Of a stretch of 64,000 nt of DNA, positions 5,460 to 28,403 are shown piece by piece. Origin of the DNA: an uncultured Erysipelotrichaceae bacterium. GTDB lineage: Bacteria > Bacillota_I > Bacilli_A > Erysipelotrichales > Erysipelotrichaceae. The position numbers and the translations under genes were made by a program. Position 1 is the first letter of the stretch. Every line of letters starts with the position of its first letter. The notes below the pieces were generated by a model, which saw only the letters and a program-made list of their open reading frames with translations, searched no databases and had not been told where the DNA came from. The DNA lies in the NCBI GenBank assembly GCA_945877255.1, contig CAMCRE010000005.1:1-64000 (forward strand). Direction: 5' to 3'.

Positions 5460-5536
<77 letters not shown>

Positions 5537-5554
5537 TATATTTAATGCAGTGAT

Positions 5555-5630
5555 GGGGTTTTAGCTCAGCTGGGAGAGCGCCTGCCTTGCACGCAGGAGG
5601 TCAGCGGTTCGATCCCGCTAAGCTCCACCA
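5555..5630 (+). tRNA. tRNA-Ala (TGC)
   Basis: A 76-base cloverleaf: acceptor GGGGTTT with AAGCTCC, anticodon loop CTTGCAC (anticodon TGC), T-arm CGGTTCGATCCCG, encoded CCA. The Ile/Ala pair usually sits between 16S and 23S rRNA genes; here it stands alone. The ICE starts 17 bases after it. Confidence 0.97.
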
Positions 5631-22126: not shown

Positions 22127-22219
22127 ATGAATAAAAGTTTAAAAGAAATACTGAATACTTTAGAAGACGGAAAAATTGTAGAAATAAGTTTTGAGGAATA
22201 TAATAAAGATGAGCAATAA
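22127..22219 (+). CDS. 30-residue micro-protein
   Basis: MNKSLKEILNTLEDGKIVEI and ten more residues, with a strong ribosome binding site AAAAGGAGGG. It overlaps the start of the giant helicase gene by 11 bases and may couple its translation. Confidence 0.45.
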   Translation: MNKSLKEILNTLEDGKIVEISFEEYNKDEQ

Positions 22220-25200
22220 ATTAGACTTAGTACGTATTAAACTACAGGTAGATAAGCAACTATTATCAGAAAAATCTATCGAAAAACCAAAGCATGCAAT
22301 AGAATTACTCAAAAATGAGATTTTTGACCTTGACAGAGAAGTATTAGTGATGCTGAACTTAAATATTAAAAATCAAGTTATCAACGCATCTTGTATTAGT
22401 GTCGGTACAATCAATGCTTCAATAGCTAGTCCAAAAGAAATATTTAAAACAGCGTTACTATCCAATGCAACTAGCATTATCATAATGCACAATCACCCTT
22501 CAGGAGATTTAACCCCTTCAGATGCTGACTTTAAACTAACTAAAGAAATTGCAAAACTTGGCAACATGATGGGTATTAAATTATTAGATCATATTATCGT
22601 GTCTTCAAAAGGAAATTCAAAAAGTCTCAGAGAAGAACGTCCAGGATTATTTTATTCAGAAACTGTTTTAGACGATGATAGAACACGAATAAACAGTCAA
22701 AACCGTGTATTTGAAGACGACAGTGATTATACGGTAAAAGAGCAACAAGTCTATATAAATAGCGAAAATATAAATCAGGAGGAACAAGATGAATTTAACA
22801 GCAACATACGAAACAGTGGAACAACTGACAGAGGAAATATTAACAACATTAGAAACGAACAGCCAAAATCCAACATACTTTTGGGCAGAGAAGAAAGTAA
22901 AATTTTGGCTGGAAGCAGAGAAAATAGACAATCCAACATTTTATTATCAACAAGTGATAGAATTATACAAGAACAACGAACTAACACAGTATCTATATTA
23001 TCTGGAAAAAACGATGCAGACGATATACAAAACAGAACTATCGAAAACAATCAAACACAATCCGACTTACAGCAAGACAGAAATCAGCAAATTTCTGACG
23101 AGTCAATTACTGGAACAATACATTTACCAGGACAATCTCATGAGGGAGATTTTAGAAAAACCAGCACAAAAAGAACAACTAATGCGAATATTCAACAATC
23201 CGGAGTTAGCGGAAAATTGGGACACATTGACACCTCAACAACAATCGGAGATAATTCGTTTGAAGAAGATAGAAGTATTAAAAAATCATCAAGAAAAAGA
23301 AAGATACACGAAAACCAATTAAACCTATTTGAATTAGACTGGTTTGATGCTATTTCAACAGATACGCCTACACAATTTCAACCACAAATAACACTAAATG
23401 ATTTTGAAGAAATGGAATTTACATTTACAGAAAGTTTTTATGAAGATGCAAGAAAAAATGGCTACATTGTAATCGACGAACCTTTATCAATTAGTAATGA
23501 AAATAAATCAGATACTGACGTGATAAAAGATATACCAATTGCAAAAAATTATATTCAAACGGAAGAAGTTGATTATGAAAAGATTTTACCAAGCGAAAGA
23601 CTTAAAAACAATATAAACGCTATTAAGATTTTAAAAGAAAATCAAAATAGACCACTTACTTTAGAACAGCAAAAAATAGTTGCAAAATATGTTGGTTGGG
23701 GAGGACTAGCTGATGTATTCGATGAGTCAAAATATGGACAATGGCTTACAGCAAGAACAGAATTAAAACATTTACTCACAAAACAAGAATACCAACAAGC
23801 TAGAGAAAGTACTTTAACAGCGTTTTATACCCCGCAATTCATTAGTCAAGAAATTGTTAAGTTTTTAAAAGAACGAGGGGTTAAAAATTGTAATATTTTA
23901 GAACCAAGTTGTGCTGTCGGTTCATTTATTCAAGAAACAACAACGCAATTAAAAAACGTAAAAGTATATGGTGTAGAACTAGATAGTATTACAGGACACA
24001 TTGCATCTAAACTTTATCCAGAGGAAAATATCCAAATTAAAGGGTTTGAGCAAACGCAATTTTCTAACAACTTTTTTGATATAGCAATCGGAAACGTTCC
24101 TTTTGGGAATTATAGTGTACACGATCCTATCTACAATAAGCATAAGTTTTTAATACATGATTATTTTTTCGCAAAAACAATTGATAAAGTGCGTGAAAAT
24201 GGATTAATTGCATTTATCACAAGTTCAGGTACATTAGATAAAAAAGATAGTAAAATAAGACGTTACATAGGAGAAAGATGTGAATTTTTAGGTGCAATAC
24301 GTTTACCTAATAATACATTTAAAGGTTCGGCTGGAACAGAGGTCACAAGTGATGTGATCTTCTTAAAGAAAAAATCAGAAATTAGTATCGGAGATAAGCA
24401 AGAATTTTATGAATTAGGAATGATTGATTATTATGATAAAGATGAAAAAATATCATCATTAGAGATTAATCGATACTACAAAAATAACCCACATATGATG
24501 TTAGGGACTATGGAAGTTGAAAGCTCGCAATTCGGAATAAAAAATGTGTTAAAACCAGCGAAAAATTTTAGTTACGAACAATTGCAGCAAGATTTTAAAA
24601 ATGCTTTAAAAAATATACACTACACATATCAAGAAAATATTGCTGAAAGCGAAGAAGAAATAATCGATACTATTCCAGCACAAAACCACGTTAAAAATTA
24701 TTCATTCGCTGTGATTGACGATAAAATTTATTATCGTGAAAATGCAATTATGATTCATCAAAATTTTGATGAAAAGAAAAAAGAATTAGTTCGTGATTAT
24801 TTACAAATAGAACAACAATTAAAAACGCTACTTGAAACACAACTCCACGATGATGACGATTTAAAAATTGCAAAACTGCAGCAACAATTAGAAAGTCAAT
24901 ACGACAATTTCGTTAAGAAACATGGTCGTTTAAACGCACGCAATGTTGTAAAAATCATTAGAGAAGACAGTAACTATCCATTAGTATCAACGTTAGAAGT
25001 ATTAGATGATGATAAAAAGTTTTTACGAAAAAGCGATATATTTACTAAGCGAACAATTAAAAAAGCAGAAATTGTTACAAACGTGGATAATGCACAAGAT
25101 GCGTTAATTTTATCACTGAATGAATATGGTAACGTTAATTTAGAATTTATGTCTAAAATTAGTGGTTTGTCTAAAATAGATTTACTAACGCAATTAGAAA

Positions 25201-28200
25201 ACGAGTTATATATTAATGTTCCTTTAAAATTTAGCACCAATGAAGTAGCAGAATATGTATCCAATTTTTATGATAATCAAGTTGAATTTATTACAGCTGA
25301 CCAATTTTTAAGTGGTGATGTACGTGAAAAACACGTACAATATCAAGCGTGGACAAAAACTTTAAATAAAAGTCAATTTTCAAACTTGAGTGAAGCAGAT
25401 CAAAACTTTTTTATAGAAAAAATACAAAAACAAACCACAGCACTTGAAAATGTATTACCACCATGGTTAAGTGCTGAAGAAATTAATGTAGGAATAGGAG
25501 CAACATGGATACCTATAGAATACTACAATCAATTTTTATGGGAAACGTTTGATGGTTCATGGTCGGCACGCCGAAATTATACTGTTCAATATTCAAAACT
25601 CACAAATGAATATTATGTAGACAATAAAAATTTTAGTACATATTCTAGCGTGCATGATGAGTATGGTGTGCGTGAATTGCGAGGTTCAATCTTACGTGCT
25701 TCAGCATATTTAGTATATCAAGACCTTTTAAACCTCAAACAAACAAAAATTTATGACAAAGGGTATAATGAAGAAGGCAAAGAAGTGCGAATACTGAACA
25801 AAGAATTAACACGAATTGCCGAGAACCGTCAAGAACAAATTAAAGAAAAATTTAAGAACTGGATATTTAAAGATTATGAGCGACGTACACGTTTAGAAAA
25901 AATTTATAATCATCAATTTAATTGTATTGTAAATCGTGAATTTAATGGTAAACAATTAGCATTTCATGGTAAAAATCCACAAATTCAATTACGTCCGCAT
26001 CAAGAAAATGCAGTTGCACGTATTTTATATGGCGGAAATACATTACTTGCTCATGTTGTAGGTGCAGGGAAAACATACACAATGGTTTCATCAATAAAAG
26101 AAGGGAAACGTTTAGGCTTATTTAATAAAGCAATGATGGTCGTACCAAACCATTTAACAGAACAAATGGGGCATGAATTTTTAGCGTTGTATCCTTTTTC
26201 TAATATTCTTGTTGCTAAAAAATCAGATTTTACACCTGAAAATCGTAAACGATTTGTGTCAAAAATTGCAACTGGAGATTATGATGCGATTATTATCGGT
26301 CATACGCAATTTGAAAAAATACAAATGAGTCCGGAATATGTTCAAAACTTTATAAAAAACGAAATGGAAATAGTCCGTGCATATATCTCAGAAAATAACA
26401 ATAGCTGGAATAAAAGTTATTCAGTAAAACAAGCAGAGCTGAAGTTAAAAAAATTGGAACAAAGACTAGAAAAAGTGTTAGATGCTTCACGAAAAGATGA
26501 CGCTATTTATTTTGAGTCATTGGGTGTAGATAAATTGTATGTAGATGAAGCACATTATTTTAAAAACTTGTTTATCCACACAAAAATGACTAACGTAGCA
26601 GGAATAGGTAAAACGGACTCTTTACGTGCGAATGATATGTATATGAAAACGAGGTATTTAAACACACTAACAAACTCAAGTGGTATTGTGTTTGCGACTG
26701 GAACACCAGTTAGTAATTCAATGAGTGAATTATATACTATGCAACGCTATTTACAGTATGATTTACTAGAAAAATATGGTTGGACAGATTTTGATAGCTG
26801 GGCAACAACATTCGGTACAACGACAACAGATTTAGAAATAGCACCCGAAGGCACAAAATTTCAACTTAAAACACGATTTGCGAAGTTTTATAATTTACCG
26901 GAATTAATGACTGTGTTTAAAGAGTGTGCGGATATTAAAACAGCAGATGTTTTAAAACTACCAACACCTGAAGCGAAGTATGAAGTAATTAAAACACAAG
27001 CCAGCGACATTCAACGTGAATTTTTAAAGGCGTTTGTGGAACGAGCGGATAAGGTTAGAAATCGCAAAGTAGAACCTGCTGAAGATAATATGTTGAAAAT
27101 AACGACAGACGGTAAAAAATTAGCGTTAGACCAACGTCTAATCAATCCAATATTAGAAGATGATCCAGATAGTAAAATCAATAAATGCGTCGAAAATATT
27201 GTGCGTATTTATCATGAAACGACACAACAAAAATCAGCACAGCTTGTTTTTTGTGATATGTCGACACCACTCCCACAACAATTCAATGTTTATGATGATA
27301 TTAAAACAAAATTAATAAAAAATGGTGTAGCTGAAAACGAAATTGCGTTTATTCATGATGCAAATACAGATAGCGAAAAAGATATTCTTTTCGCAAAAGT
27401 ACGAAATGGAACAATTCGTGTTTTATTAGGTTCAACGCAAAAAATGGGAGCAGGAACGAACGTACAAGAGCGTTTAATTGCATTACACGATTTAGATGTA
27501 CCATGGCGACCTTCTGATTTAGAACAACGTGCCGGAAGAATTGTTAGACAGGGAAATATGAATGAAACGGTATATATTTATCGTTATGTTACGGAAAATA
27601 CATTTGATAGCTACTTGTGGCAGACAATAGAAAACAAGCAAAAATTTGTATCACAAATTATGACTTCTAAACTCATACCACGTGAAATTGATGATTGTGA
27701 TGAAACAGTATTAAGTTTTGCGGAAATTAAAGCAATTGCAACAGGTAATCCATTATTTAAGGAAAAAATGGACTTAGAAAACCAAATTTCAAAATTAAAA
27801 ATATTAGAAGCCGCACATAATTCAAGTAAATATAAACTTGAAAAAAACTATCATGTGCATATTCCGAATAAAATACAATATATCAAAGAGCTTCAGGAAA
27901 AAGTGGCAGCAGATATTAATAGTACAGATTTTAAAAACGAAGGTTTTGCAGGTATGACAATCAAAGGTATCTATTATCATGATAAGAAAAAATCTGCTGA
28001 AGCATTAATGCACGTATTATCAAATTTATCTATCAACACAAAAGTTAAAATAGGAGAATATCGTGGTTTTGATATTCAAGCGTATTTAAACTTTGAGAAA
28101 AAAACAGTAGAATATGATTTATGTAAAAATCATTTTTATGCCGGGGAATTTGGAGAAAGTGGAGATGGAAATATTACACGTTTAGACAATTCAATTAATA

Positions 28201-28403
28201 CGATATTAAAATATAATACGAATTTAGAAAAAAAATTACATGAATACGAAAATGAGTTATCAAAAATAGAAACGTTGATAAATAAACCATTTGAAAAATT
28301 GGACGAATTAAAAGAAAAAATAGTACGATTAAATGTAGTTAATAATGAAATAGCAATGCTCGAAAATCAGAATACGGAGATAAAACAACAAGTGAGAATG
28401 TAG
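22209..28403 (+). CDS. giant RadC/JAB - N6-methylase - SNF2-type helicase fusion
   Basis: 2064 residues from the ATG at 22209 (GAGGA upstream). A RadC-like JAB metal-binding domain comes first (HNHPSGDLTPSDAD at about 95-108). A disordered N/S/Q/D-rich linker (about 180-375) follows. The region with YVGWGGLADVF (about 495) leads into an N6-adenine methylase fold whose motif IV is NVPFGNY (about 628). The helicase shows HVVGAGKTYTM (about 1282), the box VDEAHYF (about 1443) and QRAGRIVRQG (about 1772). Related methylase-helicase giants are common on ICEs and large plasmids, probably guarding incoming DNA from restriction. The linker overlaps a second gene in another frame at 22789-23322. Confidence 0.88.
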   Translation: MSNKLDLVRIKLQVDKQLLSEKSIEKPKHAIELLKNEIFDLDREVLVMLNLNIKNQVINASCISVGTINASIASPKEIFKTALLSNATSIIIMHNHPSGDLTPSDADFKLTKEIAKLGNMMGIKLLDHIIVSSKGNSKSLREERPGLFYSETVLDDDRTRINSQNRVFEDDSDYTVKEQQVYINSENINQEEQDEFNSNIRNSGTTDRGNINNIRNEQPKSNILLGREESKILAGSRENRQSNILLSTSDRIIQEQRTNTVSILSGKNDADDIQNRTIENNQTQSDLQQDRNQQISDESITGTIHLPGQSHEGDFRKTSTKRTTNANIQQSGVSGKLGHIDTSTTIGDNSFEEDRSIKKSSRKRKIHENQLNLFELDWFDAISTDTPTQFQPQITLNDFEEMEFTFTESFYEDARKNGYIVIDEPLSISNENKSDTDVIKDIPIAKNYIQTEEVDYEKILPSERLKNNINAIKILKENQNRPLTLEQQKIVAKYVGWGGLADVFDESKYGQWLTARTELKHLLTKQEYQQARESTLTAFYTPQFISQEIVKFLKERGVKNCNILEPSCAVGSFIQETTTQLKNVKVYGVELDSITGHIASKLYPEENIQIKGFEQTQFSNNFFDIAIGNVPFGNYSVHDPIYNKHKFLIHDYFFAKTIDKVRENGLIAFITSSGTLDKKDSKIRRYIGERCEFLGAIRLPNNTFKGSAGTEVTSDVIFLKKKSEISIGDKQEFYELGMIDYYDKDEKISSLEINRYYKNNPHMMLGTMEVESSQFGIKNVLKPAKNFSYEQLQQDFKNALKNIHYTYQENIAESEEEIIDTIPAQNHVKNYSFAVIDDKIYYRENAIMIHQNFDEKKKELVRDYLQIEQQLKTLLETQLHDDDDLKIAKLQQQLESQYDNFVKKHGRLNARNVVKIIREDSNYPLVSTLEVLDDDKKFLRKSDIFTKRTIKKAEIVTNVDNAQDALILSLNEYGNVNLEFMSKISGLSKIDLLTQLENELYINVPLKFSTNEVAEYVSNFYDNQVEFITADQFLSGDVREKHVQYQAWTKTLNKSQFSNLSEADQNFFIEKIQKQTTALENVLPPWLSAEEINVGIGATWIPIEYYNQFLWETFDGSWSARRNYTVQYSKLTNEYYVDNKNFSTYSSVHDEYGVRELRGSILRASAYLVYQDLLNLKQTKIYDKGYNEEGKEVRILNKELTRIAENRQEQIKEKFKNWIFKDYERRTRLEKIYNHQFNCIVNREFNGKQLAFHGKNPQIQLRPHQENAVARILYGGNTLLAHVVGAGKTYTMVSSIKEGKRLGLFNKAMMVVPNHLTEQMGHEFLALYPFSNILVAKKSDFTPENRKRFVSKIATGDYDAIIIGHTQFEKIQMSPEYVQNFIKNEMEIVRAYISENNNSWNKSYSVKQAELKLKKLEQRLEKVLDASRKDDAIYFESLGVDKLYVDEAHYFKNLFIHTKMTNVAGIGKTDSLRANDMYMKTRYLNTLTNSSGIVFATGTPVSNSMSELYTMQRYLQYDLLEKYGWTDFDSWATTFGTTTTDLEIAPEGTKFQLKTRFAKFYNLPELMTVFKECADIKTADVLKLPTPEAKYEVIKTQASDIQREFLKAFVERADKVRNRKVEPAEDNMLKITTDGKKLALDQRLINPILEDDPDSKINKCVENIVRIYHETTQQKSAQLVFCDMSTPLPQQFNVYDDIKTKLIKNGVAENEIAFIHDANTDSEKDILFAKVRNGTIRVLLGSTQKMGAGTNVQERLIALHDLDVPWRPSDLEQRAGRIVRQGNMNETVYIYRYVTENTFDSYLWQTIENKQKFVSQIMTSKLIPREIDDCDETVLSFAEIKAIATGNPLFKEKMDLENQISKLKILEAAHNSSKYKLEKNYHVHIPNKIQYIKELQEKVAADINSTDFKNEGFAGMTIKGIYYHDKKKSAEALMHVLSNLSINTKVKIGEYRGFDIQAYLNFEKKTVEYDLCKNHFYAGEFGESGDGNITRLDNSINTILKYNTNLEKKLHEYENELSKIETLINKPFEKLDELKEKIVRLNVVNNEIAMLENQNTEIKQQVRM
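22789..23322 (+). CDS. 177-residue protein encoded inside another frame of the giant gene
   Basis: An uninterrupted ORF in the +1 frame of the giant gene. AGGAGG (22777-22782) lies six bases before its ATG, a perfect ribosome binding site with no role for the outer frame. Its product looks like a folded helical protein with many aromatics (TYFWAEKKVKFWLEAEKI, FYYQQVIELYKNNE, YLYYLEK), whereas the outer frame here is low-complexity. It probably began as a separate gene between a RadC gene and a helicase gene that have since been joined by read-through of the other frame. No family recognised. Confidence 0.6.
   Translation: MNLTATYETVEQLTEEILTTLETNSQNPTYFWAEKKVKFWLEAEKIDNPTFYYQQVIELYKNNELTQYLYYLEKTMQTIYKTELSKTIKHNPTYSKTEISKFLTSQLLEQYIYQDNLMREILEKPAQKEQLMRIFNNPELAENWDTLTPQQQSEIIRLKKIEVLKNHQEKERYTKTN

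Follow-up and report, generated by a model that had tools for sequence, protein, structure and literature searches.

A probable TnpV-like gene nested on the same strand within the giant helicase gene of Bacillota conjugative elements

In the 64,000-nucleotide stretch of an uncultured Erysipelotrichaceae genome analysed here (contig CAMCRE010000005.1, positions 1–64,000; hereafter, the window), the giant helicase gene of a conjugative element contains a second long open frame on the same strand. Is this inner frame a gene in its own right and, if so, what does it encode, on which of the two frames does selection act, and how did the arrangement arise? To our knowledge, long same-strand nested genes are few in bacteria, and most of them are doubtful.

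A second open frame within a giant helicase gene

The outer gene (22209–28403, plus strand) encodes a protein of 2064 amino acids when read from the ATG at 22209, with a TTG at 22191 as alternative start. Along the plus strand, it comprises a RadC (JAB) domain (22278–22637; PF04002, E = 9e-39), a low-complexity linker (22641–23331) that its composition predicts to be disordered, a methylase-like region, an SNF2-related domain (26037–27122; PF00176, E = 6e-08), and a helicase C-terminal domain (27201–27554; PF00271, E = 1e-07). These regions, and a similarity to relatives extending over the whole methylase-helicase part (identity of up to 52% across 1600 residues), identify it as one of the giant helicases of Bacillota ICEs and plasmids, with which it shares the methylase-helicase order and which probably correspond to what is called ‘snf2’ in Streptococcus suis ICEs. 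It differs from them in its N-terminus, which is RadC where most relatives have an ArdC-N-like domain. The surrounding conjugative element encodes a VirD4-like protein, a relaxase, and a serine recombinase. Its left end is adjoined by tRNA-Ile and tRNA-Ala (5460–5630); the flanks of the ICE had no common word longer than 11 bases, and we claim no attachment site. Just before the giant gene, a leader ORF of 30 amino acids (22127–22219, plus strand) has its own AGGAGG, and its last codons overlap the ATG at 22209, which suggests translational coupling between them.

The inner ORF (22789–23322, plus strand) starts with ATG, encodes 177 amino acids, and sits wholly within the giant ORF (22191/22209–28403) in its +1 frame. 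As the initial annotation had described, both frames are open over these positions and an AGGAGG, its putative ribosome-binding site (22777–22782, plus strand), precedes the inner ATG with a spacing of six bases. The stop-free run of the +1 frame reaches 182 codons, a length never attained in 5000 codon permutations or in 5000 synonymous shuffles of the region alone, and attained in only 2 of 5000 synonymous shuffles of the whole giant gene; the +2 frame has 20 stops over the same region. Codon-usage scores trained on the other genes of the window gave a log-odds of +0.15 for the inner frame, against a null of -0.25 ± 0.10 (null maximum -0.004, 760 windows). They preferred the outer frame throughout the giant gene except over the nested ORF, where alone its score fell to 0.23 from about 0.5 elsewhere. 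The composition of the two products also differs. Over the nested ORF, 77% of the outer residues are N, S, Q, T, D, E, G, R, K, or P and 20% are hydrophobic, whereas the nested protein, already described as rich in aromatic residues, is 37% hydrophobic and 12% aromatic. Both the shuffles and the codon usage thus confirmed that the 177-codon ORF of the window is real, longer than expected by chance and coding-like.

Occurrence and selection in relatives

Scanning 84,980 species, we recovered 80 helicase loci, mostly with about 51% identity or less in the methylase-helicase part, 12 of which were fragmentary or cut short. Among the 68 informative relatives, 64 possessed a TnpV-like nested ORF in the +1 frame, at the junction between the N-terminal domain and the helicase part. 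Three loci with an intact giant gene and a short linker (L064, L074, and L083) lack a TnpV-like nested ORF and, with L118, make four relatives with an intact helicase but no such gene; the helicase therefore does not need it. In a Parvimonas locus (L077, 4778–5542), a nested +1 ORF of 254 amino acids occupies a comparable place under a DUF3991/Toprim-type N-terminus. Its length was not reached in any of 1000 synonymous shuffles and it was recognised by no TnpV profile tried. It may be another gene occupying the same nested slot.

The nested ORF was also present in all 15 copies from a sample of Erysipelotrichaceae that had the linker region on the contig (one of them, L164, begins inside the nested ORF); these genomes were fetched irrespective of the linker, and some also belong to the 80-locus set. 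It occurs in both low- and high-GC hosts and on six plasmids, from Anaerococcus, Streptococcus suis, Enterococcus faecalis, E. hirae, Listeria seeligeri, and Virgibacillus, where it is unannotated in the PLSDB gene table, itself incomplete. The helicase of a Vallitalea plasmid, devoid of the N-terminal domain and the linker, has no nested ORF. The nested ORFs of two contigs labelled Necropsobacter and Haemophilus (L065 and L105) are almost like that of a Streptococcus locus (L045), reflecting contamination or recent transfer, and were left out of the evidence for breadth.

In 80 nested copies, neither the inner nor the outer frame contained a single stop, against a mean of 19 in the third frame. 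An inner frame broken under an intact outer one, which the initial annotation had named as the observation that would speak against a nested gene, was consequently found in none of the 80. Ribosome sites of at least five bases preceded the first nested ATG in 57% of the relatives’ copies, and in 86% when a later early ATG was allowed, as compared with 2–7% of control ATGs. In a Streptococcus halichoeri locus (L079, 2809–11167), the giant gene is frameshifted, and in L144 (1287–1892), the parts flanking the nested ORF have been lost; the nested TnpV ORF remains intact in both, which fits an independent function.

The window copy has no close relatives among 273 genomes of the family, phages, viral contigs, or plasmids, so that the figures for selection come from the relatives and not from the window copy itself. 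We estimated dN/dS in relatives, divided into three groups of 17, 12, and 9 sequences, by scoring each change by its effect in both frames. With outer change held, the inner frame gave 0.16, 0.13, and 0.23, all with confidence intervals below 0.3; with inner change held, the outer linker gave 0.80, 0.87, and 1.25. The same counting applied to the helicase domain as a control gave 0.01–0.03 for the outer frame and about 0.6–0.7 for the +1 frame. The comparison of rates that had been proposed as a check of the nested gene therefore yielded a clear pattern: in the relatives, strong purifying selection acts on the inner frame and the outer linker is near neutral, the helicase domain being the mirror image. 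We set aside a second control, on the N-terminal domain, because its ungapped blocks are probably misaligned. Across 231 diverse pairs, identity was 32% in the inner frame, 20% in the outer, and 21% in the unused one, in an alignment that was built on the inner protein and favours it. Since the selected, foldable frame is the inner one, it is the outer linker that represents the overprint. This part of the initial annotation, a resident gene under an overprinted low-complexity frame, agrees with the codon usage, the composition, the ribosome sites, and the selection seen in relatives.

A probable divergent relative of TnpV

TnpV (PF14198) is a transposon-encoded protein of Tn4451/Tn4453/Tn6104-type elements, whose gene has been described so far only standing alone, within mobilisable elements; here it lies wholly inside a helicase gene, including on plasmids. 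Five nested ORFs of relatives (L071, L051, L053, L052, and L048) scored 135.7, 73.3, 56.5, 55.3, and 31.3 bits against PF14198, above its curated cut-off of 27 bits, with E values among the relatives of 7.8e-40, 2e-20, 3.2e-15, 7.7e-15, and 2.1e-7; that of L036, with 18 bits, is below the cut-off on its own. These proteins also resemble TnpV in their similar size and all-helical nature.

The window protein had no match to PF14198 at E ≤ 1 and we therefore name it TnpV-like and do not file it as a family member. Against a profile of diverse nested relatives, it scored 14.7–15.2 bits, above all shuffles of itself. Less diverse searches were less discriminating: profiles from near-identical relatives gave weak, shuffle-level matches, and in searches of this type, including phmmer, 2 of 1000 shuffles outscored the real sequence. 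Alignment of the window copy with the nested TnpVs by hhalign had P = 0.0015 and a probability of 17%. The profile match covers a TnpV-like core (residues 3–105; 22795–23103, plus strand; 14.7 bits), which shares its alignment pattern with TnpV, and is followed by a C-terminal extension of about 60 amino acids (23140–23319, plus strand) missing from the relatives. AlphaFold2 predicted a nested TnpV of a relative with a pLDDT of 89 and the window protein with a pLDDT of 70 (moderate confidence), both as five helices with the same order and lengths, although the window model was built with the relatives’ alignment and is not independent of it. A fold search of the PDB with both models found no match, including none to a lambda Xis-type excisionase. 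Overall, the window protein resembles its nested counterparts in position, frame, ribosome site, and predicted order of helices, and tentatively in its profile score; it is TnpV-like without being a formal member of the family.

Several other readings of these observations have to be weighed. The inner frame might owe its openness to composition alone: in a purine-rich linker of low complexity, the +1 frame could stay free of stops by chance without encoding any protein. The linker is indeed of low complexity and the whole-gene shuffles twice produced such a run, but those of the region never did, relatives conserve the inner and not the outer frame, hosts of both low and high GC carry the ORF, it matches a Pfam family, and ribosome sites are enriched before it; a compositional artefact is largely refuted and has, in our opinion, a very small probability. 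The strong, conserved internal ribosome sites, together with the location of both ORFs on the same mRNA, might also mean that the act of translation matters more than its product, with internally initiating ribosomes tuning how many others reach the helicase part. The conservation of the inner amino acids (dN/dS 0.13–0.23) and the existence of stand-alone TnpV genes elsewhere indicate instead that the product itself is under selection, making this explanation quite improbable.

A mobilisable element carrying tnpV could have left this gene in the linker, where it would have been functionless since. Mobilisable elements do carry stand-alone tnpV genes, and elements of this kind insert themselves into snf2 of Streptococcus suis ICEs (PMC9815147; PMC3158075). 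Yet all copies, over a deep helicase tree, have a single frame and position, and purifying selection and the lack of decay in 80 copies do not correspond to a remnant, which is disfavoured and which we deem very improbable. Finally, the ORF of the window might be an unrelated gene that took the nested slot of TnpV, as may hold for the 254-amino-acid Parvimonas ORF that TnpV profiles failed to recognise. That the window protein is below the Pfam cut-off, has no close homologues, and carries a 60-amino-acid extension would be compatible with such a replacement; its profile match above all its own shuffles, and the alignment pattern and helix order in common with the nested TnpVs, argue against it and make it unlikely, if less easily dismissed.

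Our preferred reading is that the nested ORF is, with high probability, a functional small gene, a divergent TnpV relative that would be translated from its own ribosome site on the mRNA of the giant helicase. To a ribosome translating the outer gene, this stretch would be a disordered spacer that connects the N-terminal domain, RadC in this case, with the methylase-helicase; one initiating internally on the same mRNA would make a compact helical protein. Translation of the window’s own copy is probable, and co-translation might tie the amount of the nested protein to that of the helicase. This protein probably works in the DNA processing of the element, during transfer or establishment. For stand-alone TnpV, a role in excision has been postulated from its likeness to lambda Xis (PMC3158075). 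Excision cannot be the whole role of the nested protein since copies exist also on Enterococcus, Listeria, and Virgibacillus plasmids, provided that they work there.

History and significance of the arrangement

The initial annotation attributed the overlap to the fusion of RadC with the methylase-helicase. This is not supported, since a nested +1 ORF occupies this position also in relatives with ArdC-N-like or primase/Toprim N-termini and, in the helicase tree, the window lies within the nested clade, beside relatives with an ArdC-N-like N-terminus (the tree has long branches and a midpoint root). Nor did any locus turn up in which RadC, the inner gene, and the helicase are each encoded separately. 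From the position of the window inside the nested clade, RadC is a later N-terminal replacement; the nested arrangement predates it, RadC having replaced an ArdC-N-like domain in the window. Copies lacking the nested gene occur at scattered positions in the helicase tree and, therefore, are best read as losses. The original event would have been either a read-through over a resident gene or the insertion of the small gene into the linker, and the TnpV tree is compatible with either stand-alone or nested copies having come first.

More generally, we consider it likely that a same-strand nested gene has been fixed in the giant helicase of conjugative elements across Bacillota, reaching Fusobacteriota, that selection acts on the protein of its hidden frame, the overlying host frame being an almost unconstrained linker, and that N-terminal modules (ArdC-like, RadC, primase) have been exchanged upstream while the nested gene stayed. 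The overlapping genes of E. coli O157:H7 (pop, ano, asa, and laoB) are likewise long, non-trivial overlaps overlooked by annotation, but they are antisense and known in one species; the nested TnpV-like gene is on the same strand, extends across Bacillota and Leptotrichia, and has a hidden frame under purifying selection. No published report of a nested tnpV was found in the literature searched, which took in few subscription journals, and absence there is no proof. With its many copies, its link to a curated family, its ribosome sites, and selection that is reversed between the two frames, this gene makes cellular overprinting directly testable; it also accounts for the peculiar low-complexity stretches found in these common helicases. 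The plasmid records examined do not annotate the gene under the linker of the giant helicases. An entire class of tnpV genes on ICEs and plasmids may be hidden by annotation, and the nested copies offer a handle on a TnpV-type protein travelling with conjugation genes.

RadC (PF04002) and ArdC_N (PF08401) can stand in for each other as N-terminal modules of the outer protein and are distinct from the nested gene: the relative L064 passes the ArdC_N profile, other relatives have N-termini that resemble it, and the window has RadC in its place. ORFs with a RadC-like motif were also observed just downstream of the giant gene, and not within it, in Vagococcus (L052, 11687–13561) and Clostridium liquoris (L057, 11794–13644). 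Both modules also co-occur: in a further locus (L022, 1–2064, minus strand), a gene adjoining a topoisomerase encodes one protein that fuses RadC directly to ArdC_N, followed by metallopeptidase-like and YodL domains.
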